64,000 nt of DNA, from NCBI GenBank assembly GCA_002989075.1, contig PSQN01000002.1, positions 636,097-700,096 on the forward strand, in the 5' to 3' direction. The translations under genes and the position numbers were made by a program. Shown here piece by piece: positions 9,922 to 62,784 of the stretch. The first letter of the stretch is position 1. Every line of letters starts with the position of its first letter. Source of the stretch: Arthonia radiata (taxonomy: Eukaryota; Ascomycota; Arthoniomycetes; Arthoniales; Arthoniaceae). The notes beneath the pieces were generated by a model. The model ran no database searches and was not told where the DNA came from. It saw only the letters and a list, made by a program, of their open reading frames with translations.

Positions 9922-10380
9922 ACTATTGTTACGGTCTTACTACATCCGGCTAGTACAAGGCTGAGCGCAGCCAGCCTCATTAGAGCATTATACAGGATAC
10001 CCAATAACTCCGATATAGCGACGTTAGCGACGTCGCTATATCGCAATAGAATTTCGATAACGCGACAGAAGAACTATTAGAACCGTTAAACGCAAAGAAA
10101 TATACTTATGTATCTTAAACTATATAGCTAAACTAATAGCCGACCTTAAAATAAACTTTAGTCTATTAACTTAATATTTAAATATAAGTTTCTTAACTAT
10201 ATTCAAGTAACGTACTTTACCTTTTATCTACTTAGTTAAGCCCCTCTTACCTTTAGTAATCTATTTCGCCTCTCCTGCCTTTTAGTCTCTAGTATACGAG
10301 ATACCTAATACTAAGGTCGACAAGCACATAAGGCAAGTGAGCCTTAGTTCGCTCCTCCCAGCGGCCGGCGTTACAACTAT
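9922..10380 (+). mobile_element. Solo LTR with perfect 5-bp target duplication
   Basis: A 449-bp LTR (9927-10375) starts TGTTACGG and ends GGCGTTACA, flanked by ACTAT at 9922-9926 and 10376-10380. Its 3' half clearly matches the LTRs of the two Gypsy elements at 26.5-41.3 kb, while its 5' (U3) part differs, so it belongs to a sister subfamily. A lone LTR with an intact target duplication is the usual product of recombination between the two LTRs of an inserted element. It lies within R1 copy 1. Confidence 0.9.
10011..10043. repeat. 14-bp perfect hairpin inside the solo LTR
   Basis: CGATATAGCGACGT (10011-10024) is the exact reverse complement of 10030-10043, with a 5-base loop. It lies in the part of the LTR that differs from the other subfamily, and contains CpG sites that survived in an otherwise RIP-affected neighbourhood. 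Confidence 0.85.
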
Positions 10381-26509: not shown

Positions 26510-26981
26510 TGTAACGCCGGTCGCTGGGAGGACCGAACTAAGGCTCACTTACCTTGTGTGCTTGTCGACCTTGGTAGTAGGTGTCTCGTGTGCTAGAGAC
26601 TGAAAGACAGGAGAGGCGAGACAGATTACAGAGGGTGAGAGGGGCTTAACTGAAGTAGACAGAAGGTAAAGTACGTTACCTAAATATAGTTAAGGAACTC
26701 GTATTCAGATGTTAAGTTAACAGACTAAAGTCTATTCTAAGGTCGGCCATCAGTTTAGCTATATAATCTAAGGTACATAGGGAAGTTCCTCTGTGTCCGT
26801 TAATCTTGACAATGCTTATATCGGGTTTGTAGGGAACGTAGGCTCTTAAAGCCGTCTTGTTCGATAATGCTTACGGCGGGTTTGTAGGCTTAGTCGGGAA
26901 TGATGCTGGTAGGGCTGAGATAATTAGCGGTGGTCGATGCTTGGGTGCACGCTAGGCCGTCTGGGGCTGGTGCCTGTAATA
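26510..26981 (-). repeat. 3' LTR of Gypsy copy B
   Basis: 472 bp, starting TGTAACGCCGG on the plus strand and ending GCCTGTAATA. It is next to the AATCCCCC-type complement of the polypurine tract. It matches the right LTR along its full length with transition differences. Confidence 0.92.
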
Positions 26982-27086
26982 CAATCCCCCTTCTTTTAGT
27001 TAAATTGTCCTCGATTGACCCTCAGCCTTTTAAACACTTATAAGTTGCGTTTCGTCCCTCCTTTCGTAACTGATCTGTAAGTCGCT

Positions 27087-27722
27087 ATGCCTCGCATAAA
27101 GTCCGTTGCTGCGGGTCCTGATAAAAAGTACAGCCAATACCTGTTAATTGAAGCCTGCGGTATCGCGATGCCTCCTTGTTCTAGATGTGTGTCGACTAAG
27201 GAAAGGTGTGTGGTTCAGTTCGGGAAGGCGACGTGTTCGGTGTGTACTCGAGATAGAAAGAGTTGTGATTTACGGGTGTCGATAGCAGATAGTATGCCTT
27301 TTTAGTGTCCTTTTGTGGTGACTGGAACTAACTTAATTGTAGCGCGTTCGGTTTATTCTCAATATTCCTTTCAGTCGGCTGCCCTTCAGCGCGCGAAGAG
27401 CCAATTGCGTGCGTTAAAGGCTTAGGTAGCAGCGTTGGTTGCGGCTGTGCAGCGTAACCGATCCGAGGTCCGGAAGTTAAAAGAGGAGGTTGAGAAGACT
27501 CGTGCGCGGGTAGCAGCGAAGTTAGCTCGGGATAAGTTGTTGGAGCAAGAAGAATTTGCTGCGTCGGTGGCTGGTGGTGATATATTTGAATGTCCGAGCG
27601 GGTTATCTGTTGACTTTCGGAGTGACCCCTACCCGGTGTTGGGTGGTGGTCCTGTAACATGGTGGGCTGGTTCGTTCGAGGGTGACCTGGGTGCCGGCGA
27701 GGCACACCAGGTAGTGGATTAG
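27087..27722 (+). pseudogene. Antisense region of Gypsy copy B with a Zn(II)2Cys6-like cysteine pattern
   Basis: On the strand opposite to gag-pol, between the chromodomain and the 3' LTR, an open stretch starts with ATG at 27087 (72 codons). It has cysteines at residues 31, 34, 41, 50, 53 and 60, that is C-x2-C-x6-C-x8-C-x2-C-x6-C, with PCSRCVSTKERC as the first half. This spacing fits the fungal Zn(II)2Cys6 DNA-binding cluster. A second open stretch, about 27435-27722, starts with a Lys/Glu/Arg-rich, coiled-coil-like segment (EVRKLKEEVEKTRARVAAK) and ends in Gly/Pro-rich sequence. The same region exists in copy A at about 40.06-40.69 kb on the minus strand, more eroded. It is part of a broken element and is described as a fossil. 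The family assignment is from spacing alone. Confidence 0.55.
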
Positions 27723-30700
27723 GGTGTTAGTGCTGCTACGACCGATTAATATTCTAGTCCCAGTATCGTCGAATGGTGTCTTTACAGTTAATTAGGTTTT
27801 ATTCCGGTTCCTATTGATTTTCGTGTTCAGAATATCCTTTCTACTTTATGAGATACTGTCGTTTGCCTCGGTGTTGTCTGTGAGCTCGAATTGCTTCGAC
27901 TTCATACTCGGGTTCTTAATTGTCAGAAAGGATTTCTGGGTTAGGTCGTTCTGCTTCTCGGGAGTAGGCTAGTTTCAACAGCGCTACGTAAAATACAGGA
28001 TATATTCTTATTGTCTTCGGGAGTTCGAGTTTAAATGTTACGGGTCCTAATTGCTGTAAGATTTTAAACGGTCCTGTCTTGGTATAGTCGAGTTTTTTGC
28101 TTGGTCTGATAGTTTTTAAGTTTCTTATAAGCAAGTAAGCTCTTCCCCCCTCTTTTATGCTTGTGTTTGGGGTTGTTCTTAACTTGTTATACTACTTTCT
28201 TGTTCGTTCGTTAATAAACTCGCTGTCAGACTTTAACTGCTGGTGCAGGTGTTTTATGTTCGTAGCTATTCGTGTAGCTGATTCGTTTTCTGTGGTATTT
28301 TGTAGTTGTCTTCCCTGAAGAGGGTGATAGCTATATAAGGCGTAGAACGGAGTTGTCTTGGTTGTATTGTTCTTTGTATCGTTGTGCGCTGCTTACGCTA
28401 CTGGTAGTAACTGTACCTAGTCGTTCTGCTGGTAGTTGATGTATGCCCGGAGATACTGTTCTAGTGTTTAATTTGTTCGTTCTGTCTGTCCGTCTGTTTG
28501 TGGATGGAATAATGTTGACATTTTTTGTTTTGTTTCTAGCTGTTGCATCAGGGATGTCTAAAACCGTGAGACGAATTTCCGGTCTCTGTCTGAGACAATT
28601 CTTTGGGGTTGGCTATAGTTTGCTAAGATAATCCGAAGGAAGGTATATATCAAATGTTCTGAGTTGCTAGCTTCCTTGTAAGGTACGAAGTACGCGTACT
28701 TTGTTAGTTTGTCGCATATGACCAGGATAGCGTCGTAAGCTACTCCTGTGAATAGATCCTTGGAAGTTAGTAACTTAGTAATAAAGTTTAGTAAGACTGT
28801 GTGCTATAGTCTCTTGGGTGTCTTTAGTGGTTGTAGTTTACCGTATGATAAATATTTCGGGTGCTTGGTTCTTGCGCATATGTCGCATTCTCGGATGTAA
28901 TTCTCGACGTGGTGTCGGATCCTCGGGATGTAGTAGGTTCTCGTAATCTTTTCTATAGTATTGTCGATGCCTTTATGTTCTTTAGTTGGGTCATCGTGGA
29001 AGTCACTGATAATGTTCCGGATTAGATTCCTCGGGACGTAGATTTTGCCTTAGAATTCGTAATATCCCTTGTTGTTCTTAGTTAATCCTGGGTGTCGTTT
29101 CTCGTTTTCTTGGTAGGTTTTAGGGTCGTTCAGGATGTCTGGGATTCGGCTGTCTAGTTTAATAACAAACTCGGTTGTTATAGCCAATTGATTGTATCTA
29201 ATCTCGTTATTGTGTTCTCGGAATATTGCATGCTCGACGTGTTCCTTGTTATTAAGGTAATCCGGTCGTCGGCTCAGAGCGTCGGCCCTATCGTTTTCAG
29301 AACCCTTCTTGTAGGTAATAATAAAGTCGTATAGAGCTATAGTTTCTGACTATCTAACTTGTCTGCGGTTGAGTTTCTTTGTTGTCGTAAAATAAGTTAG
29401 GTTTTTGTGGTCTGTGTATATTATAATCGTATAGTTTGCTCCTTTCAGGTAAGCTCGCTATGTCTTAAATACTGCTATAATGGCTAAAAGCTTTTTGTCG
29501 TAAATATCGTAGTTCTGTTCTGTGGGTAACATTTTCCTTGAGTAGAAAGCTACTAGTCTAAGCTTTCCTTCTTTATTGTTTTAACTTATGCATGCTCCAA
29601 TTACATAGTCTAACGCGTCTGTTTCTATGATAATCGGCAGGTTGGGGTCAAATATTGCTAGTACAGGCCCGATCTTAAAAGCTTCTTTAAGTTCTTTAAA
29701 TGCTGATTGTTCTTTTTGCGTCCAGAAGAATCCTGTCGATTGTTTTGTCTGTTGAGACAGCGGTGCTGTAATTCGGCCAAAGTTAGATATCTATCGCCTG
29801 TAGTAGTTGGCAAAACTAAGAAACTGTTGTAATTGTTTTACATTCTTTGGTATAGGCTAGGTTAAGACGGATTAGATCTTCGAATCTTCTATTTGGAGAC
29901 CGTGCTCGGTAATTATAAATCTAAGAAATTCGACGGATTGTTGGTAAAACTAAGTTTTCTCGATGTCGATTCGTAAATCGGCACGCGCCAATCTTTTTAA
30001 TACCTTTTTAATATGTTCCTTATGTTCTTCTAGTGTACGGCTGTATACTAGGATATCGTCTAGATAAGCAGTTATAAATATGTCTAGATAATCGCTGAGT
30101 GTGTTGTTAATTAGTTTCTAAAATAATGCGGGAGCGTTCGTTAGCCCGAAGGGTATAACGCAATACTCGAAAAGTCCGTGTCTGGTGCGGAAGGCCGTTT
30201 TCCATTCTTCGCCCTCCTTTATACGGATTAGGTTGTATGCTCCTCGTAGGTTAAACTTAGTGAACTATTGCGCGTCATACAATCGGTCTGTTATTTCGTC
30301 GATGCGTGGTAAAGGGTATCGATTCTTAATAGTTACCCCGTTCAGTTGTCTGTAATCTACGCAGAGTCGCAGTTTGCTATTCTTCTTGGGTACGAAGAGT
30401 ATCGGGTATCCGGCTGGTAATGTTAATTTCCGGATAAATCCTTTCTTAAGGTTTTCGTTAAGATAATTACGGAGCGCTTAATTTTCTGCTTCTAATAGAA
30501 AGTATATTGGACCGAATGTTGGCGTTTTGCCTTCTTGTAAAGGTATTGTGTAATCTCACGGTTTGTATTCTGGGAGAGCTGAGTTCGGCTCAGCTTCTTT
30601 AAACAGGTGTCGGAATTGATTGTATTCCTCGGGTATCTTAGTAATCAACTGAGTACTTGTCGTCGTGTAGAATCGTTGGCGTGCAGTCGTCTCTTGTTTA

Positions 30701-33380
30701 TACTTGCGTGTAGTTGGCCACAGACGAGATACTGCGTTAGACTCCTCTCGTAGGATGTCTGAATGTCGGAGTGTAGTGGTGCTAACCCGCGTAAGTTCCT
30801 TATCGCGCTCCTTATCCTTACTACTAAAATTAGCTTATAGGGTATTCGTTCCGCAGAACGACTCTTGCTTAGAGTGCTTGTACCTAGTGAAGAGGAGTTT
30901 CTTAGTTCTCTAATCTACTTCTAGGTTATATTGTTGCAACTAAGGTATACCTAGTACAGCATAGTGCTGGTTAATATCTACAATATTATAAGTAATTTCT
31001 TCCTAATAGTCCCCAATTATTATACCTATTGGCGAAGTCTCGTAGTCGACTCTTCCCTCTACCCCTTGAAATCCGGACAGTGCGTAGGGTGATTTCTTCT
31101 TTCGTGTTTGTATTTGGTACTCTTCAACGCAGCGTGTTGAGATAAAGTTGCCTGTTGCGCCTAAATCGATTATAACTTCAATGTTTCTGTAGTTTACTGT
31201 TGTTCGAGTGTGCAGGTGTGTTTTATAGGCAGCCGAGCTCGCGCAGAGCTAGACTTCTAAAGGGTTTAACCGTTGGACGGGCCGGTACTGCTGCCCTCGA
31301 AGCAGTCGGCCTGGTCTTTTTCCTGTTGATCGTATACGTTCTGGAGTATTTTGGGTACCAGAACCTATTGTCGGTTGATTTGTTGTAAGAATTCCTGTGT
31401 AGAGTGTCCTAGTACTGCTTTTATTATAACGTCTGGTTTGTCGTTTACGATCCCTGCTTTAATTATACAACTATTGCTGGTTAAAACTCGTCGTGTCTGT
31501 AGGTTGTACATTGTTGATCGAAGATATTGGTACTGACTGCGCAATTCTAGACCCCTAATAAGGTGGTCTACTGGTCGTCGTAAGCGTAAGTAAATATATC
31601 TCAGAATGTCGTTAATGTCTTTATCAGCGCTTAACTTCCTATTGTAGAAGGCCAACTAACAAAGTCTCTATATTATTCCTTCCCAACGGATTGGGGTTTG
31701 TTCTTCCTGGTTAGTGTTGTCCTCGAGCGAGGATTCCGTACTATTAGAATCCATGTTTTTGTCTTTAAGTCGTTGTCTTGCCTGTGACGCATCGTAGCTG
31801 CTGTCTTGCTTAGCTTCTACGGTCTGTTCTTTCTTAAATTTCCCTTGGGTTTCTAGGTAAGGTGACCTAGGTCGTCCTCGGATAAGGCCTAGTTCTTGTG
31901 TCGAACCTTGTTTGGGAGATGTCGGTTTCTTCGGCCACCATCCTAACCCTAGTTTGTCGGATTCGTAAATCGTGCAATCGTCATTGTAGCACGCGGTCCA
32001 GGATAGTGTATCGTGTAGTGTAACGGTACTCTGTACCTAATGCCTCGGAATAGTGCGGTTAATGTTGTTTCAGTTCTGTGAGTCTTGTTGTTCCTGTTTC
32101 ATTTGTTGTTCCTTTGTTTCTTCCTATGACTCACTGTCTGTATCCCAGTTTTTGTGTAAATTAAACAAGTTTAGTTCGTTGTGCTTCCTATCGAAAGTAA
32201 CTGAATGAGTGTCTTCCTGGTTACAGAAGGCACCCTAGTAGGTGTCCTTCTGCTTCTTGGTTAGTCCGGTAACGTACTTACACTAGTTCTGGTTGATCTT
32301 AGGTAGGAGTCTAAACGCTTGAAGTGGACGGTCCCCGGTTAGGTTTATGTGCCAGCGGTCGGAGAAGGCTGCCAGTAATTTTATTGCCTTATCGCGACCG
32401 TAGTGTTCCTGTGTCTGGATAGTTATATTGAACTGTTGTCGTGGGAGACGGGGTTTCTAAGATCGATTGTTATGCCTGTTTCTGCCGGTACTGTTGAACT
32501 GTTGTTTCTTAGAGCGGCATTCTTTAACTTAATGCCCTAGTTTTCCGTAATACAAGCATAGCTTGTTCTTTATTCTGTGTTCTCTTTCTTGGTTGTTTAG
32601 TTTCCCTCGAGGCTTTGTGAAATTTAACTCTATTGGATCGCCTCGGTCTTGTCGTAAGTTTGCTCGATTCTTTGTTCTATAGAACCTGTTGGTGGGGTTG
32701 CCCTTCTTTTCTATTTGTCTTTCGAAGTTGCTGTCGTCGATCTCCTTTGCTCGTTGTATAAAGTTGTCGAGATCATCAAACTTTTCTTTACGAATATAGA
32801 TTATTTCCTTGATATGATCCTTGAGTCCTTCGTAAAAGGTTTCGATCAGGGGTTTCTTGTCTTATCCTGTTTGATTAGCATACTGTATAAATTCGGCGGC
32901 GTACCTGCTTGCTGGTCCTGTCTGCTTAAGGTTCCTAAGCTTCCTGGTAGCGACGCGTCTAGCGTCGGTCTGTCTAAAGATTTTGCGAAGCTTCTTCTAA
33001 AAGAAGGCAAAGCTGGCGAAGAACTCGTCGGTGTCCTCGCGCCTACTCTTTATCGAGGTAAACAAGAAATCGTCGAGGTAGTACTTAACCTACTTGTAAG
33101 CATCTCTATCTATATAAGAGGTAGCGAATAGAACTATAGTAGTATCGTTCGGGAACTGGTCTTTGTGAGTTCTAAAGTACACGGCTAGGCGTGTCAAGAA
33201 TGAAGTAACTTTGGAATGTTTACTTAAGAAACTTTTTCCCATCTTGGTGTTAACGTCCGATATCTTACTCGTGCTGGCCATTCTGTTGGCCAATCTGTCC
33301 GCAGCGTCGCGGCTGTTAGGTGCCGAAGTAGTAGACATAATTGATCTGCTTTCTCTACTTTCGTAGCGAGTCTGTTAAAG

Positions 33381-33852
33381 TGTAACGCCGGTCGCTGAGA
33401 GGACCGAACTAAGGCTCACTTGCCTTGTGTGCTTATCGACCTTAGTAGTGGGTGTCTCGTGTACTAGAGACTAAAAGACAGGAGAGGCGAGACAGATTAC
33501 AGAGAGTAAGAGGGGCTTGACTAAAGTAGACAGAAGGTAAAGCACGTTACCTAAATATAGTTAAGAAACTTGTATTTAGATGTTGAGTTAATAAACTAAA
33601 GTCTATCCTAAGGTCGGCTATCAGTCTAGCTATATAATCTAAGGTACATAGGGAAGTTCCTCTGTGTCCGTCAATCCCGACAATACTTATATTGGGTTTG
33701 TAGGGAACGTAGGCTCTCAAAGCCGTCTTGTCCGATAATGCCTACGGCGGGTTTGTAAGCTTAGTCGGGAATGATGCTGGTAGGGCTGAGATGACTGGCG
33801 GTGGTCGATGCTTGGGTGCACGCTAGGCCGTCTGGGGCTGGTGCCCGTAATA
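33381..33852 (-). repeat. 5' LTR of Gypsy copy B
   Basis: 472 bp, from TGTAACGCCGG to GCCCGTAATA on the plus strand, the same length as its partner. It abuts the TAACT target duplication and faces the second element across a 73-bp gap. Confidence 0.92.
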
Positions 33853-33925
33853 TAACTACTTTCTATCTACCTTATATTTATAGATAAGTCTATAAGTTAT
33901 AATATTATTAATAATTAATTAATAT
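33853..33925. other. Spacer between two head-to-head Gypsy elements
   Basis: 73 bases of AT-rich host DNA, including one target duplication of each neighbour (TAACT on the left, AATAT on the right). It is the remaining piece of the sequence into which both elements inserted. Confidence 0.85.
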
Positions 33926-37300: not shown

Positions 37301-40055
37301 GCACTCCGCAATTATCTTAACAAGAACCTTAAGAAAGAATTTATCTAGAAGTTAACATTACTAGCCAGATACCTAATACTCTTCGTATCAAAGAAAAAAA
37401 GTAAACTACGACTCTACGTAGATTATAGACAACTAAACGGAGTAACTATTAAAAACTAATATTCTTTACTACGTATCGACAAAATAACAGACCGATTGTA
37501 TAATACGCAATAATTTATTAAGTTTAACTTACAAGGAGTATACAACCTAATCTATATAAAGAAAGGCGAGGAATAGAAAACAGCCTTCTATACCCGACAC
37601 AGACTTTTTAAGTATTGCGTTATGCCCTTCGGACTAATAAACGTACTAGTATTATTTTAGAAACTAATTAACAACATACTTAGCGATTACTTAGATATAT
37701 TTATAACTGCTTATCTAAACGATATCCTAGTGTACAGCCGTATACTAGAAAAACATAAGAAACATATTAAGAAGGTATTAAAAAGATTAGTGCGTACCGA
37801 TTTACAAATTAATATTAAGAAAACTCAGTTTTACCAACAATCCGTCGAATTTCTTAGATTTATAATTACCGAGCATAGTCTTTAAATAAAAGATTCGAAG
37901 ATCTAATCTGTCTTAATCTAGCCTACACCAAAGAATATAAAACAATTGCAACAGTTTCTTAGTTTTGTTAACTACTATAGGCGATAGATATCTAACTTTA
38001 GCCGAATTATAGCACCGCTGTCTTAACAGACGAAACAATCGATAGAATTCTTCTAAACGTAAAAAGAACAATTAGTATTTAAAGAACTTAAAGAAGCTTT
38101 TAAGATCGAGCCCGTATTAGCAATATTTAACCCTAACCTATCGATTATTATAGAAATAGACGCGTTAGACTATATAATTGGAGCATGTATAAGTTAAAAT
38201 AATAAAGAAGGAAAGCTTAGACCAGTAGCTTTCTACTTAAGAAAAATGTTACCTACAGAATAGAATTACAATATTTACGATAAAGAGCTTTTAGCCATTA
38301 TAGCAGCATTCGAAATATAGCGAGCTTACCTGGAAGGAGCAAACTATACGATTATAGTATATATAAACTACAAAAATCTAACTTATTTTACGACAACAAA
38401 GAAACTTAACCGCAGACAAGTTAGATAGTTAGAAACTATAGCTCTATACAACTTTATTATTACCTATAAGAAGGGTTCTGAGAACAATAGAGCCAACGCT
38501 CTAAGCTAACAACTAGATTACCTTAATAATAAGGAACATATCGAGTATGCAATATTCTAAGAACACAATAACGAGATTAGATACAATTAATTAGCTATAA
38601 CAACCGAGTTTGTTATTAAACTAGATAGCCGAATCCTAGATATCCTAAACGACTCTAAAACCTATCAAGAGAACAAGAAACGACACCTAGGATTAACTAA
38701 GAACAACAAGGAATATTACGAATTCTAAGGCAAAATCTACGTTCCAAGGAATCTAATCCGAAACATTATTAGTAACTTCCACGATAACCCAACTAAAGGA
38801 CATAAAGGCATCGATAATACTATAGAAAAGATTATAAGAACCTACTATATCCCGAGGATCCGACACTACGTCGAGAATTATATCCGAGAATACGATATAT
38901 ACGCAAGAACTAAGCATCCGAGGTATTTACTATATAGTAAACTACAACTACTAGAGACACCTAAGAGACTATAGTATATAGTCTTACTAGACTTTATTAC
39001 TAAGTTACTAACTTTCAAGAATTTACTTATAGAAGTAGCTTACGATACTATCTTAGTTATATACAACAAACTAATAAAGTACGCATAGTTCGTATCTTAC
39101 AAGGAAGCTAGCAACTTAGAATAATTAGTATATACATTCCTTTAAATTATTCTGGCAAACTATAGCCAACTACAAAGAATTATCTTAGACAGAGACTAGA
39201 AATTTGTCTTACGATTTTAAATATCTCTAATACAACAGCTAGAAACAAAACAAAAAATATTAACATTATTTTATCCGTAAACAGACGGACAAATAGAACG
39301 AACAAATTAAACACTAGAACAATATCTCTGAGCATACATTAACTACCAGTAGAACGACTAGGTACAGTTACTATTAGTAGCGCAAGTAGCGCACAACGAT
39401 ACAAAGAACGATACTACCAAGACAACTTCGTTCTACGCCTTGTATAGCTATTACCCTCTTTAGGGAAGACAACTATAAAATACTACAGACAACGAATTAG
39501 CTACGCGAATCGCTATAAACATAAAACACCTGTACTAGCAGTTAAAGTCTAACAGCGAGTTTATTACAGAACGAACGAAAAAATAGTATAACAAGTTAAG
39601 AACGACCCTAAATACAGGCATAAAAGAGGGGAAAAGAGCTTACTTGCTCATAAGAAACTTAAAAACTATTAGACTAAGCAAAAAACTTAACTATACTAAA
39701 ACAGAACCGTTTAAAATCTTACAGCAATTAGGACCCGTAACCTTTAAACTCGAACTCCTAAAGACAATAAGAATATATCCTGTATTCTACGTAGCACTAT
39801 TAGAGCCAGCCTACTCCCGAGAAGCAGAACGACCCAACCTAGAAATCCTTTCTAACAACCAAGAACCCGAGTATAAGGTTGAAACGATTCGAGCTTATAA
39901 ACAATACCGAGGCAAACAACAGTACCTTATAAAGTAGAAAGAATACCCTAAACATAAAAATTAATGGGAACTAGAACGAAACCTAACTAACTATAAAAAC
40001 ACTATTTAACGATATTAGGACTAAAATATTAATCTGTCGTAGCAGTACTAACACC

Positions 40056-40691
40056 CTAATCTACTACCTAGTGTACCTCGTTAGTACCTAGATTACCCTT
40101 AAACGAACCAGCTTACTATGTTATAGGACTACTATCTAATACCGGGTAGAGGTTACTCTAAAAGTTAACAGATAACCCGCTTAGACATTTAAATATGTTA
40201 TTACTAGCTATCGACGCAGCAAACTCCTCTTGCTCCAACAACTTATTCTAAGCTAACTTCGCTGCTGCCCGCGTACGAGTCTTCTTAACCTTCTCTTTTA
40301 ACTTCCGGACTTTAGATTGGTTACGCTGTACAGCCGCAACCAACGCCGCTGCCTAAGCCTTTAATGTACGTAATTGGCTCTTTGCGCGCTAAAGAGCAGC
40401 TAACTAAGAGGAATATTAAGAATAAACTAAACGCGCTGTAATTAAGTTAGTTCTAGTTACTATAAAGAAGACACTAATAAGGCATACTATCTACTATTAA
40501 TACCCGTAAATTATAACTCTTCTTATCCCAAGTATATACCAAATACGTCGCCTTTCTAAACTAAACTATATATCTTTCCTTAGTCGACACGTATCTAAAA
40601 CAAGAAGGCATTTTAATACCGCAGACTTTAATTAACAGGTATTAGCTATACTTTTTATTAAGACCCGCAGTAACGGACTTTATGCGAGGTA
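40056..40691 (-). pseudogene. Antisense region of Gypsy copy A (counterpart of 27087-27722)
   Basis: The mirror position of the antisense cysteine-rich region of copy B. The N-terminal side (near 40.69 kb) and the Lys/Glu/Arg-rich stretch (near 40.3 kb) can be aligned by eye on the minus strand, showing that the region belongs to the family and is not an accident of one copy. It is more eroded than in B. Confidence 0.45.
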
Positions 40692-40797
40692 TAGCGACTT
40701 ACAGATTAGTTACGAAAAGGAGGGACGAAACGTAACTTATAGATATTTAAAAGCTAAGAGTTAATTAAGGACAATTTAACTAGAAGAGGGGGGATTG

Positions 40798-57700: not shown

Positions 57701-60157
57701 TAATTACTTAGAAATCCTAGACTTTATAGATAGTAGTAATTATTAAGATAATGAAGCTAAAAGTAGTACTATAGAAGTTTTATATCTTAGATATTTTAGT
57801 ATAAGATAATAAATTATATAGTTATCTCTTACTAAAGAATAAAAAGATACCTTTAAGATTAGAAGCTATCTAGTATATAAGCGCATTATAGTCTTTAAAG
57901 AATCTTATAAAGAGCTCTTTACTTAATAATAGTTAACTATATAATTCTTTAAGAAATGAAAAAAGTATTCTACTAGGATATATATTAGCTAGAGAATTAA
58001 AAGAAAGTAAGCTACTAATAAATAGTAGTTTTTTAATAAAGAGTATAATCTTAGTAATAGTACTCTATATATAATATATAAGCGCTATAGTATAGCGCTT
58101 AAGTATCTATCTAGTAGAGGTAGAGGTAGTATTATAAGTACTTATCTTTAGACTAGCTCTATGTATACTAGAGTATCTAGTAAAAAAGGTCTTAATTAGA
58201 TAAAACTTAAGGTAAGATTTTATATAAAGGTATAGATAGACTTTCTATTCTATTTCTATAAATTTACTTTATAAAAATAGAGACAATAGATTAGTATAAA
58301 GGGTTAATATATAGAATTAATATAAAGCTAACTTAATAAACTCTAGAAAGAAGTAGACTAAAATTCAGTTAATAAGGCTTCTATAACTCCTCTTACACTA
58401 TAATAGTTTAAAGAGTATCTACTTAATACTCTAGTTAGAAAAGCTGTTACTTTCTATTAAGTTAATTATCTACTATTTTAATAAGTATTCTTAAGTCTAA
58501 ATAATAGAATAAGCTTTTTCTTAGAAATAACCCTCTTTTAATATCTTAAAGATTATATAAATAAGATTTATACTAAGTAAGCTTAATAGCTTTAAAAGAC
58601 TATAGTAAAAATCTTACTATCCTTAGATATTTAGTTAGTAAAGAATAATTAATAGAGTTTTTCTACTCTCTAAGTCTACTATATTAATTAAGTATTAAAT
58701 CTCTATAATTAACTAATTAAGCTTTAACCTCTCTATAGATTATATACTAGTATTATAATTAGTAAAGTTATTAAGTAGGTTCTAGTTAACTATAAGATAT
58801 AAGATTACATTCTTAGCTTTATATTTAATAGTATAGTAAACAATTATATACTATATAAAGAGCTTATTAAGTAAATTAATATAAGAAATAAGGAGCTTAG
58901 ATAAATATATATCTATATAGTAAATTACTTTCCTTATCTTACTTATATTATTGACCTTATAGTCTATATACTTCTAAAGAAGCTTAAGTTCTAGCTAACT
59001 AATAAGGGTGTTTAATAGAATTATAAGAAGAATAAGAAGATTAAAGAGTATTAGAAATATATATATTTTATCTCTAGAATAGTATAAGATAATTTAATAT
59101 CTATTATATTATTCTATATAAGTAGTTATCTATACTCTTAATTTTATTCTTAGAATCCTTCTTATATTAACTCCTTATATTAACCTTTTATATTAACTCT
59201 TTATATTAATCTTAATACTTAAATAGTTTTTACATACTACTATTTACTACTAAATAACTAATAAAGACTATTTATTCTAGATAAGAAAGACTATAATTAG
59301 AGTTAATATATTGTTAAAATAGAGTAAGATCTTTAGGACTATTTGAGAATAATTAATTATAAGTAAAGAGTTAACTTCTTAGTCTAGCAGGCTAGTAAAG
59401 CTATTCTAGGACGTAAAAATAAGATAGAACTCTATATATTATATAATTCTATACTTTATTTATCTAGAACTAGTAGTATAATAGTAGTATTATAAGGATA
59501 TAGATACTTTATATCTTTAACCTACTAATTAATAATAGTATTAAATAAAGTATCTTATTAATATTATTAAGCGCTTTATATAGGTAATAGATAGCCTATA
59601 ATATGATATATATATATAGCCTTTAATTAGTTATTTAATTATCTTAAAAGGCTTTAAAAAGTTTTTTAAAAAAAGAAGCTATTCTAGTAAAAAGATCTAC
59701 TTTAGAGTATTATAGCTTACTATACTAAACTAGTAGAGTACTACGCTACTACTTAAGGCTTAATTTATAACTTCTATAGATTTATAATACTTTTAATACT
59801 ATTATATTAAATAAGCTACTTTACTAATAATCTAGAAGAATAGAGTTAGTAACGCTAGATAAGATTAGTAACTTAATAATAAAAAGAAGATTAATAAAAT
59901 AATCTAAAACTTCTTTTAAGAGAATATTAATATTATAGATAGCTATTTTAGAAGCGGCTAGAAGATTTTTATAATATTTACTTTAGTAATCTTCTATAAG
60001 AAGAGGTATTTAAGCTCTAGATATTATAAGCTAGTAATATTAATTTACTTCTAATATAGATTTTAGAATTATAATTAGCCTAGTTTAATAGATATATATC
60101 TAATTACTATATATATTATAGTCTATAAGTTTATCTCTAGCTTACTAATATATCTTA
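54741..60157. other. Unassigned RIP-type AT-rich DNA (5.4 kb)
   Basis: No terminal repeats and no recognisable domain. TTTATATTAA-type words recur throughout (for example near 55.48, 57.45 and 59.18 kb), the same word that makes up the minisatellite at 60.2 kb. Probably several layers of old elements. Confidence 0.5.
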
Positions 60158-60352
60158 ATACTTTATATTAACTCTTTATATTAACTCTTTATATTAACTC
60201 TTTATATTAACTCTTTATATTAACTCTTTATATTAACTCTTTATATTAACTCTTTATATTAACTCTTTATATTAACTCTTTATATTAACTCTTTATATTA
60301 ACTCTTTATATTAACTCTTTATATTAACCCTTTATATTAATTATTTATATTA
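60158..60352. repeat. 13-bp minisatellite, ACTCTTTATATTA
   Basis: Twelve perfect units run from 60171 to 60326, followed by ACCCTTTATATTA and ATTATTTATATTA, with a partial unit before. The near identity of neighbouring units is striking in DNA otherwise full of point mutations. Confidence 0.95.
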
Positions 60353-61199
60353 TCCTACTATATTAAATCTATTCTAAATAGTTTATAAAATTTACTAACT
60401 TCTAGCTAGAAAATCTTAATATTAAAGAAACTATAAAGGTTATAAAGAAGTAGTAATAAATTAAGAAGCTGTTTCCTTATATTATATAGCTAGCTTAAGA
60501 TATTTTAGTAATTTCTACTTTAGATATAAGCTATAAAAAGCTTTTCTTAATTATCTATATAATTTAGAACTAGAATTAGCTATATAGTCTCAATATAATC
60601 TATAATATAGTACTAATTTAGTACTATAAGGTTTCCTTAGTCTAGGCTATTAAGTAAGAGCTTATCTTATAGTAGTATACTATAAGTAGTCTTAAAGAGG
60701 TAGATATAGAGGTATAAGAGCGTTCTATTAAAGTACTAGTAGCTAAGTTAAAGGTTACTAAGTTTAGATATATTAGTAATAATAAAGAAGATAATACTTT
60801 AGTATCTATCTTAAGGTAAAATAGAAGATCTAGACGACCTAAAAAGAGAGCTATAGGTAAACTAGAAGCTTTAGTAGTGGGAAATAAGTATACTTATAGG
60901 TAGTAAGACTCTACCAGTAATACTAGTAGTAATTAGATTCTATAAACCTATACTTACTACTTAAATTTTACTTTAATTTTGTTCTATAGTCTAAAGATAT
61001 TTAATTAAAGTATAAAAATCTATTAGATAGCTTCTAGCTATCTATATATTAATTCTATATATTAACCTAGTATATTGATTCTTCTAGCTTATAAAGAACT
61101 ATATACTAAATAAAGATCTAGAATAGACTCTCTAAAAATACTTTTACTTTAGTGTTAAACCTATATAGGTTAAGTAGTTATTATATATCTATAAACCTA
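60353..61199. other. Unassigned AT-rich DNA with a possible coding remnant
   Basis: Between about 60.66 and 60.91 kb one plus-strand frame reads as protein-like sequence with a basic run, RRSRRPKKRAIGKLEALVVG, and few interruptions. It may be the C-terminal end of an old transposon protein. No domain is recognised, and no terminal repeat was found. Confidence 0.4.
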
Positions 61200-62474: not shown

Positions 62475-62784
62475 TATAACGCTGGTCGCTGCGAGAACCG
62501 AACTAAGGCTTACTTACCTTGTGTGCTTATTAACCTTAGTAGTAGGCGTCTTGTATACTAGAGACTAAAAGACAGGAGAGGCGAGACAAATTATAGAAGG
62601 TAAGAGGAGCTTAACTAAAGTAGACAGAAGATAAAGTATATTACTTAAATATAGTTAAAGAACTTATATTTAGATATTAAGTTAATAGACTAAAGTTTAT
62701 TTTAAGATCGGCTATTAGTTTAACTATATAGTTTAAGGTATAAAAGTATATTCCTTTGTATCCAACGGTCTTAACAATCCCTTT
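62475..62784 (-). mobile_element. LTR fragment of the same Gypsy family as the solo LTR
   Basis: On the plus strand it starts TATAACGCTGGTCGCTG, the end of the LTR family (TGTAACGCCGG...), and follows it for about 300 bases. The later part (TTCCTTTGTATCCAACGGT) resembles the solo-LTR subfamily more than the two full elements. The match stops near 62.78 kb, where another repeat begins. It is a broken, truncated copy inserted in the pogo-type relic. Confidence 0.75.

Follow-up and report, generated by a model that had tools for sequence, protein, structure and literature searches.

How should a short reading frame with six regularly spaced cysteines, lying antisense to gag-pol in a retrotransposon of the fungus Arthonia radiata, be interpreted: as a gene of the element, as a gene captured from the host, or as a mere shadow of pol? 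We explored this question for a stretch of 64,000 nucleotides (assembly GCA_002989075.1, contig PSQN01000002.1, positions 636,097 to 700,096; hereafter, the window), in which a preliminary description, made from the sequence alone, had singled out positions 27087-27722. Comparison with other copies in the genome (33.5 Mb, 16 contigs), the numerous Zn_clus genes and chromoviruses of which fit a fungal source, indicates that this stretch is exon 1 of an antisense gene encoded by a fungal Ty3/Gypsy chromovirus. Our reading as a whole, namely, that of a coding gene with an intron, exchanged together with the U3 region of the long terminal repeat (LTR) and encoding a DNA-binding regulator of the element's own U3, is one to which we assign a probability of roughly 0.55.

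Structure of the antisense gene

The antisense stretch begins with the ATG at 27087 on the plus strand and extends for 72 codons up to its first in-frame stop, the TAG at 27303. As originally described, it lies opposite gag-pol, the pol pieces of which are on the minus strand, next to the 3′ LTR (26510-26981), and contains six cysteines spaced C-x2-C-x6-C-x8-C-x2-C-x6-C (27177-27266). The general spacing of Zn(II)2Cys6 domains is C-x2-C-x6-C-x5-12-C-x2-C-x6-8-C, and the antisense motif is its sole match in the six frames of the window; dinucleotide shuffling of the window gave such spacing in none of 100 trials, and shuffling of the local kilobase gave it in 1 of 5000. The spacing of the six cysteines exceeds what chance would produce.

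The stop at 27303, previously taken as the limit of the stretch, is real but falls inside a predicted phase 1 intron of 51 nt (27292-27342; GTATGC ... AACTAAC ... GTAG). Exon 1 would thus span 27087-27291, starting either at 27087 or at a conserved ATG at 27168, which is separated from the donor by 41 codons plus 1 nt in the element type of the window (type A) as well as in two others described below (type B and family C). Exon 2 (27343-27746) consists of a coiled-coil-like part (about 27375-27557), so assigned by reading and from weak coiled-coil matches rather than with a coil predictor, and a conserved C-terminal tail (about 27558-27746), followed by the natural stop at 27747-27749. The charged, coil-like segment reported to follow the cysteines is therefore present, and the notion of a family-wide antisense protein gene is supported; the end placed at 27722 has to be moved to the natural stop, given that the TAG at 27720-27722 reads CAG in some of the copies.

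Codons 1-27 (27087-27167) display little constraint between types A and B, and translation may actually begin at the ATG at 27168. Directly before the ATG at 27087, the sequence CTGTAAGTCG (27075-27084; positions 756-765 of the type B locus L139) is kept between types A and B, although the surrounding leader is saturated with changes, and may represent a start context or the donor of a first intron. As regards the latter idea, which is based on a conserved GTAAGT 10 nt before this ATG, reading of type B revealed no good acceptor.

Copies of the gene and coding constraint

The genome search for the antisense gene produced at least 150 matches (150 of 255 candidates were scored, and all of these matched), so that the family, initially recognized from two copies in the window, is far larger. 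The counterpart noted at the mirror position of the second copy does exist (40029-40692, on the minus strand, with the first Cys codon at 40602), but has been degraded by repeat-induced point mutation (RIP), with tyrosine at 5 of the 6 cysteine positions. Of the 150 matches, 111, including both copies from the window, were aligned, and removal of 4 truncated ones left 107 type A copies. Changes of the RIP type (C to T and G to A) are pervasive across the copies, and those of the window are RIP-mutated and non-functional in their present form. No stop in the antisense frame (27081-27746) is fixed across all 107 copies. The internal stops are of the RIP type (at codon 17, TAA in 96 copies against CAA in 9; at codon 212, TAG in 100 against CAG in 4), and each departure from cysteine at the six codons of the motif leads to tyrosine, with the exception of one arginine. 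The predicted intron has the donor GT in 101 copies and the acceptor AG in all 107, and shared transversions reach a higher density within it (7 in 51 nt) than across the exons (22 in 609 nt). The natural stop occurs in 106 of the 107 copies in one alignment and in all of them in another (TAA in 98, TGA in 8 and TAG in 1). L017, which has the lowest RIP index of the copies, keeps an open frame all the way from codon 18 to the natural stop.

Because these copies were found via the antisense gene itself, the number of elements without the gene cannot be derived from them, and coordinates were therefore compared by eye with those of the chromodomain matches. Among the best 78 of 149 such matches, 55 have a type A exon and 14 have a type B exon beside them, whereas the others comprise three cases of family C, one of family D, four long open frames, and one locus without the gene (L141). 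The suggestion that the family carried such a gene is thus borne out, but the wording that it "once" did so, in the past, is too weak for this distribution and for the open frame of L017.

To what extent is the gene constrained? In the comparison of L017 with L139, a type B locus reached via the chromodomain search (the same place as L142), dS for the spliced sequences is about 2, i.e., near saturation, and dN is 0.49. The dN/dS ratio is 0.20 for the part of the cysteine exon that starts at codon 28, in an ungapped alignment, 0.19 for exon 2, where the alignment is gapped and based on protein similarity, which biases dN downwards, and 0.76 for codons 1-27. From codon 28 to the end, the ratio of nonsynonymous to synonymous differences (pN/pS) is 0.469 in the antisense frame and 1.328 in the opposing pol frame, so that codon constraint exceeds that on the opposite strand, as had been predicted for a genuine antisense gene. 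The remaining frames yield 1.21 and 1.22 on the plus strand, and 1.00 and 0.56 on the minus strand; the minus frame with the ratio of 0.56 contains 7 stops in both L017 and L139 and owes this value to the coincidence of its third positions with those of the antisense gene. Of the 219 differences between L017 and L139, 100 fall at third positions, a number equalled in 0 of 20,000 shuffles. Taken together, these comparisons indicate that the antisense gene is coding and has evolved under purifying selection between two divergent versions, A and B. On the basis of the same frame comparison, a pol reading that traverses the antisense block as one open frame was rejected.

A plan shared by four element types

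Six further loci around other chromodomain matches were read, namely, L139, L140, L141, L144, L145 and L146. We group the copies into type A (the window copy and L017), type B (L139 and L143), family C (L145 and L146) and family D (L144). The antisense protein of L139 is homologous to that of type A (profile E-values: coil-and-tail frame, 9e-37; cysteine frame, 8e-20; six frames searched) and retains all six cysteines with identical spacing, in agreement with the conservation that had been anticipated for other copies. In type B, the cysteine and coil exons are in different frames, and removal of a predicted 49-nt intron (GTCAGT, CTAAC, CTAG) joins them exactly; the type A counterpart, at 51 nt, is a multiple of three and holds the stop at 27303. 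In families C and D, a predicted intron likewise joins the cysteine and coil frames. In all seven copies (window, L017, L139, L143, L144, L145 and L146), the intron is located 8 residues plus 1 nt past the last position of the motif and is 49-53 nt long, with CTAAC starting 14-16 nt before its end in five of the seven (CTGAC in L017 and TTAAC in L143). Thus, judging from the sequences, a small predicted intron occupies a position common to four element types.

Families C and D show no blastn match to types A and B, except for a 72-nt stretch of L145, and yet follow the same plan antisense to pol, with a cysteine motif that includes a tyrosine, an intron and a coil. The type A profile matches family C weakly (20 bits over the cysteine exon) and does not match family D; kinship between the coils of A and C is weak as well, with 1 of 500 shuffles being equally good. 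The case for C and D rests mainly on the shared plan. One more locus, L140, matches family C and keeps the coil-like sequence, with the cysteine exon deleted according to blastn.

Exchange of the gene together with the U3

Alignment of L017 with L142 over 2.3 kb provides for a direct comparison of types A and B. The shared part of the LTR (26510-26799) contains 3 transversions in 290 nt (0 in 131 nt and 3 in 159 nt), and the pol segments contain 10 in 1034 nt (0, 2 and 8 in 254, 300 and 480 nt, respectively). Between them, every segment of 26800-27548 differs by 20-37% transversions, and similarity returns over 27549-27746 (13.6%). The exchanged cassette, which is sharply delimited (26800-27655, the right border being approximate), accordingly encompasses the upstream part of the U3 (26800-26981, minus strand; 25% transversions), the presumed polypurine tract adjoining the LTR (26985-26999, minus strand; pyrimidines on the plus strand, as read from the sequence), the leader, exon 1, the intron and most of exon 2. 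Over about 1045 nt, the pol genes of the two B copies are 3-5 transversions away from the nearest A copies and 8 from each other, compared with a median of 13 among A copies, a value inflated by L020 and L030, which are broken in the pol stretch. Given that B pol falls within the diversity of A whereas the block is saturated, the block was exchanged between old lineages, most simply via template switching in reverse transcription. A TATA-like stretch (26760-26766) lies within the shared part of the LTR, so that the swapped LTR portion is likely to be the upstream control region. Thus, the sequence comparison indicates that the antisense gene is exchanged together with the upstream U3 between otherwise nearly identical elements.

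Each of the two U3 versions contains a candidate site: in B, an inverted repeat of 10 bp without mismatch (0 of 300 shuffles), and in A, a 28-nt direct repeat with 23 of 28 matching positions (0 of 60 shuffles). The pattern CCG-N13-CGG, found twice in the A U3, was rejected as a site, being equalled by 39 of 500 shuffles.

Elements and LTRs of the window

Element 1, which carries the gene analyzed here, spans 26510-33852, with pol on the minus strand and 472-bp LTRs (the 3′ LTR on the minus strand, with its partner at 33381-33852) that are flanked on both sides by TAACT, a 5-bp target duplication, and differ by 34 transitions, 0 transversions and 0 gaps. Its gag-pol (27750-33380, minus strand), broken by RIP-type stops, comprises protease, reverse transcriptase, RNase H, integrase, SH3 and chromodomain. 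Among the 10 between-stop pieces scanned, 6 matched Pfam families (aspartyl protease, RVT_1, RT_RNaseH_2, Integrase_H2C2, rve and SH3_Tf2-1), the protease and integrase-core (rve) pieces with scores under their cut-offs; the chromodomain (C16:663853-664002; window 27757-27906) scores 47.6 bits. The order between the LTRs of protease, reverse transcriptase, RNase H, integrase and chromodomain is that of Ty3/Gypsy chromoviruses. Element 2 extends from 33926 to about 41268, with pol on the plus strand, so that two full-length copies are inserted head to head, with just 73 nt (33853-33925) between them.

Two further LTR sequences are present in the window. The one at 9927-10375 is a type B LTR that combines the shared part with the B U3, and blastn detected neither the antisense gene nor pol beside it; it is probably a solo LTR. 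The U3 side of the fragment at 62477-62763 matches neither A nor B, and this fragment could be a third U3 type or a truncated copy. At 60082-60406, a 13-nt unit (TTATATTAACTCT-like) forms a tandem array.

Possible function and alternative explanations

If the antisense gene encodes a regulator of the element, its transcript would start in or beside the 3′ LTR and would then be spliced, with translation yielding a protein destined for the nucleus, 176 or 203 residues long depending on the start codon. The cysteine motif would hold zinc and touch DNA, the coiled coil would make the protein a dimer, and the conserved tail would meet a partner common to types A and B. By targeting the upstream U3 found in elements of its own type, the protein would set LTR transcription and, with it, copy number, through either activation or repression. 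As a regulator has no use without its site, the U3 and the DNA-binding part would be passed on jointly. More tentatively, and in our judgment rather doubtfully, the block could function as an immunity-like cassette, in which the dimeric DNA-binding protein represses (or licenses) the LTRs of its own U3 type, such that a swap of the regulator and U3 block would allow escape from sibling control and a new expansion; types A and B would then be two specificities, and the LTR at 62477-62763 perhaps a trace of a third. Lambdoid phages, which swap repressor and operators, provide an analogy.

Several observations weigh against the regulator reading. At L141 (G000:C9:1921850-1923350), which belongs to another Gypsy family with a chromodomain, no such gene was seen in the 1.5 kb read. 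Constraint on codons 1-27 is low also against four A copies (dN/dS of 0.53-0.82). The codon test within family A (103 copies, shared transversions by codon position) yields few changes and no periodicity and, in this young family, is uninformative and has no power; in the same alignment, the pol control gives a third-position excess (8, 9 and 18 of 35 at pol positions 1, 2 and 3). The intron donors were chosen with the frame in mind and, in this respect, are not independent evidence. Both copies of family C, which has the A/B spacing, carry tyrosine at the fourth cysteine position, and the single copy of family D has x9 and x8 spacing and tyrosine at the fifth; these tyrosines are one RIP step away from cysteine and may have originated through RIP. 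With respect to PF00172, the profile of the zinc clusters, the similarity foreseen in the preliminary description turned out to be borderline: compared with the cut-off of 21 bits, the window copy scores 9.5 bits (E = 1.4), L013 scores 8.3, and the type B copy L139 scores 20.3 (E = 6e-4), whereas L017, L023, L144, L145 and L146 show no match to this profile. Searches of the PDB by sequence and by profile yielded no zinc-cluster match but just weak ones, the best at E = 0.013, to glutaredoxin, coiled coils and others. CGG/CCG triplets, the usual sites of the Gal4 class, are not enriched in the U3 of either A or B. Finally, adjacency alone could suffice to carry the U3 along with the gene.

What kind of protein would this be? 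The Zn(II)2Cys6 spacing is found in types A and B and, with tyrosine at one of the six positions, in C (L146) and D (L144). However, the proline one or two residues before the fourth cysteine, invariant in 8 aligned host domains (out of 62 host matches), is absent in A and B, and the profile comparison with these 8 domains is weak, aligning 16 columns out of register, the first half against the second half. The single-sequence structure model of the 72 residues (mean predicted local distance difference test score of 56.6) is too poor for a fold search, and no relative was found among the viral contigs searched. On sequence grounds, then, the antisense protein is best described as zinc-cluster-like and not as a member of PF00172.

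These features bear directly on the earlier proposal that a Gal4-type zinc-cluster transcription factor was captured from a host gene. The exact spacing class, the near-threshold score of type B and the occurrence of basic residues in the interval from Cys 2 to Cys 3 all speak for such an origin, but with the scores under the cut-off, the missing proline, the out-of-register alignment, which leaves capture from a host regulator without support, and the presence of the gene in four divergent element types, which points to an old gene of the elements, we consider this scenario improbable. Still more remote is the prospect that the open frame reflects nothing but pol or chance, or is of consequence solely as antisense RNA. 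In low-RIP copies, the minus-strand pol frame is also largely open over the block, a second minus frame has the low pN/pS mentioned above, and transposon-derived antisense noncoding RNAs have been reported in a fungus, according to the portion of that report considered here (PMC10648671). Against this, pN/pS is far lower in the antisense frame than in pol, the competing minus frame is interrupted by stops and shares its third positions with the antisense gene, and the same intron plan recurs in four element types.

The most serious competitor, which we regard as possible although clearly less probable than the regulator reading, is a genuine antisense accessory protein that does not regulate the U3 but acts on RNA, capsids or chromatin, for example, in nuclear import or integration, with the U3 exchanged as a mere neighbour. 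The sub-threshold cysteine motif and the lack of CGG enrichment fit such a protein, as does the statement, in the consulted part of a study on comparable antisense reading frames (aORF-3R), that the function of the encoded protein is unknown (PMC7264820). Conversely, the left border of the cassette lies inside the LTR, so that the upstream U3 is replaced but the TATA part is not, and the two U3s contain inverted and direct repeats; these observations favour a regulator of the U3 but are not proof.

The case offers an antisense protein with testable biochemistry (zinc, dimer, DNA), gene structure and coding constraint, as well as a natural experiment, in which two element types share the same pol but differ in U3 and regulator. 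Should the protein indeed read its own U3, retrotransposons would carry self-recognising control cassettes.

Comparison with known systems

The antisense gene resembles fungal Zn(II)2Cys6 factors (PF00172) in the cysteine spacing and in the coil-like part that follows, but differs from them in falling under the family cut-off, in the absence of the loop proline and in being encoded by the element. The nearest working analogy, in outline, is HBZ of human T-lymphotropic virus (HTLV) 1, a spliced antisense gene at the 3′ LTR that encodes a dimerising regulator; HBZ is a basic leucine zipper (bZIP) protein without a zinc motif, and we claim no kinship. An antisense promoter in the 3′ LTR of HTLV is mentioned in PMC7264820.

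Both plant and fungal elements are known to contain antisense genes close to the 3′ LTR, the function of which is stated to be unknown in the part of the source considered (PMC7264820). Among fungi, Boty of Botrytis cinerea carries an additional antisense gene, brtn (PMC7264820, PMC4227169, PMC5987419), and brtn of Boty-like Gypsy elements, similarly to the present gene, is located antisense in a fungal element with a chromodomain at the end of its gag-pol (PMC4227169). The plant aORF-3R genes include gene23 of Grande, that of RIRE2 and TRP28 of Retand, of which TRP28 is predicted to bind DNA, and the Grande protein is nuclear (PMC7264820, PMC11963269); these are plant elements, and the portions of the two reports considered describe no six-cysteine motif or linked exchange of the U3. 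A literature search by title and the beginning of the abstract, with subscription papers mostly outside its scope, likewise returned neither an antisense gene of zinc-cluster-like type nor a linked exchange of the U3. Thus, antisense genes as such are already known, whereas we found no report, within this scope, of the zinc-motif plan and its linked exchange with the U3.

With respect to the exchange itself, a parallel is presented by the U3 modules of Tnt1, Retrolyc1 and Retrosol, groups that differ in U3 and share much of the rest (PMC1838419). The part of that report considered here mentions no antisense gene, whereas in the chromovirus of A. radiata, a coding gene accompanies the U3 in the exchange.
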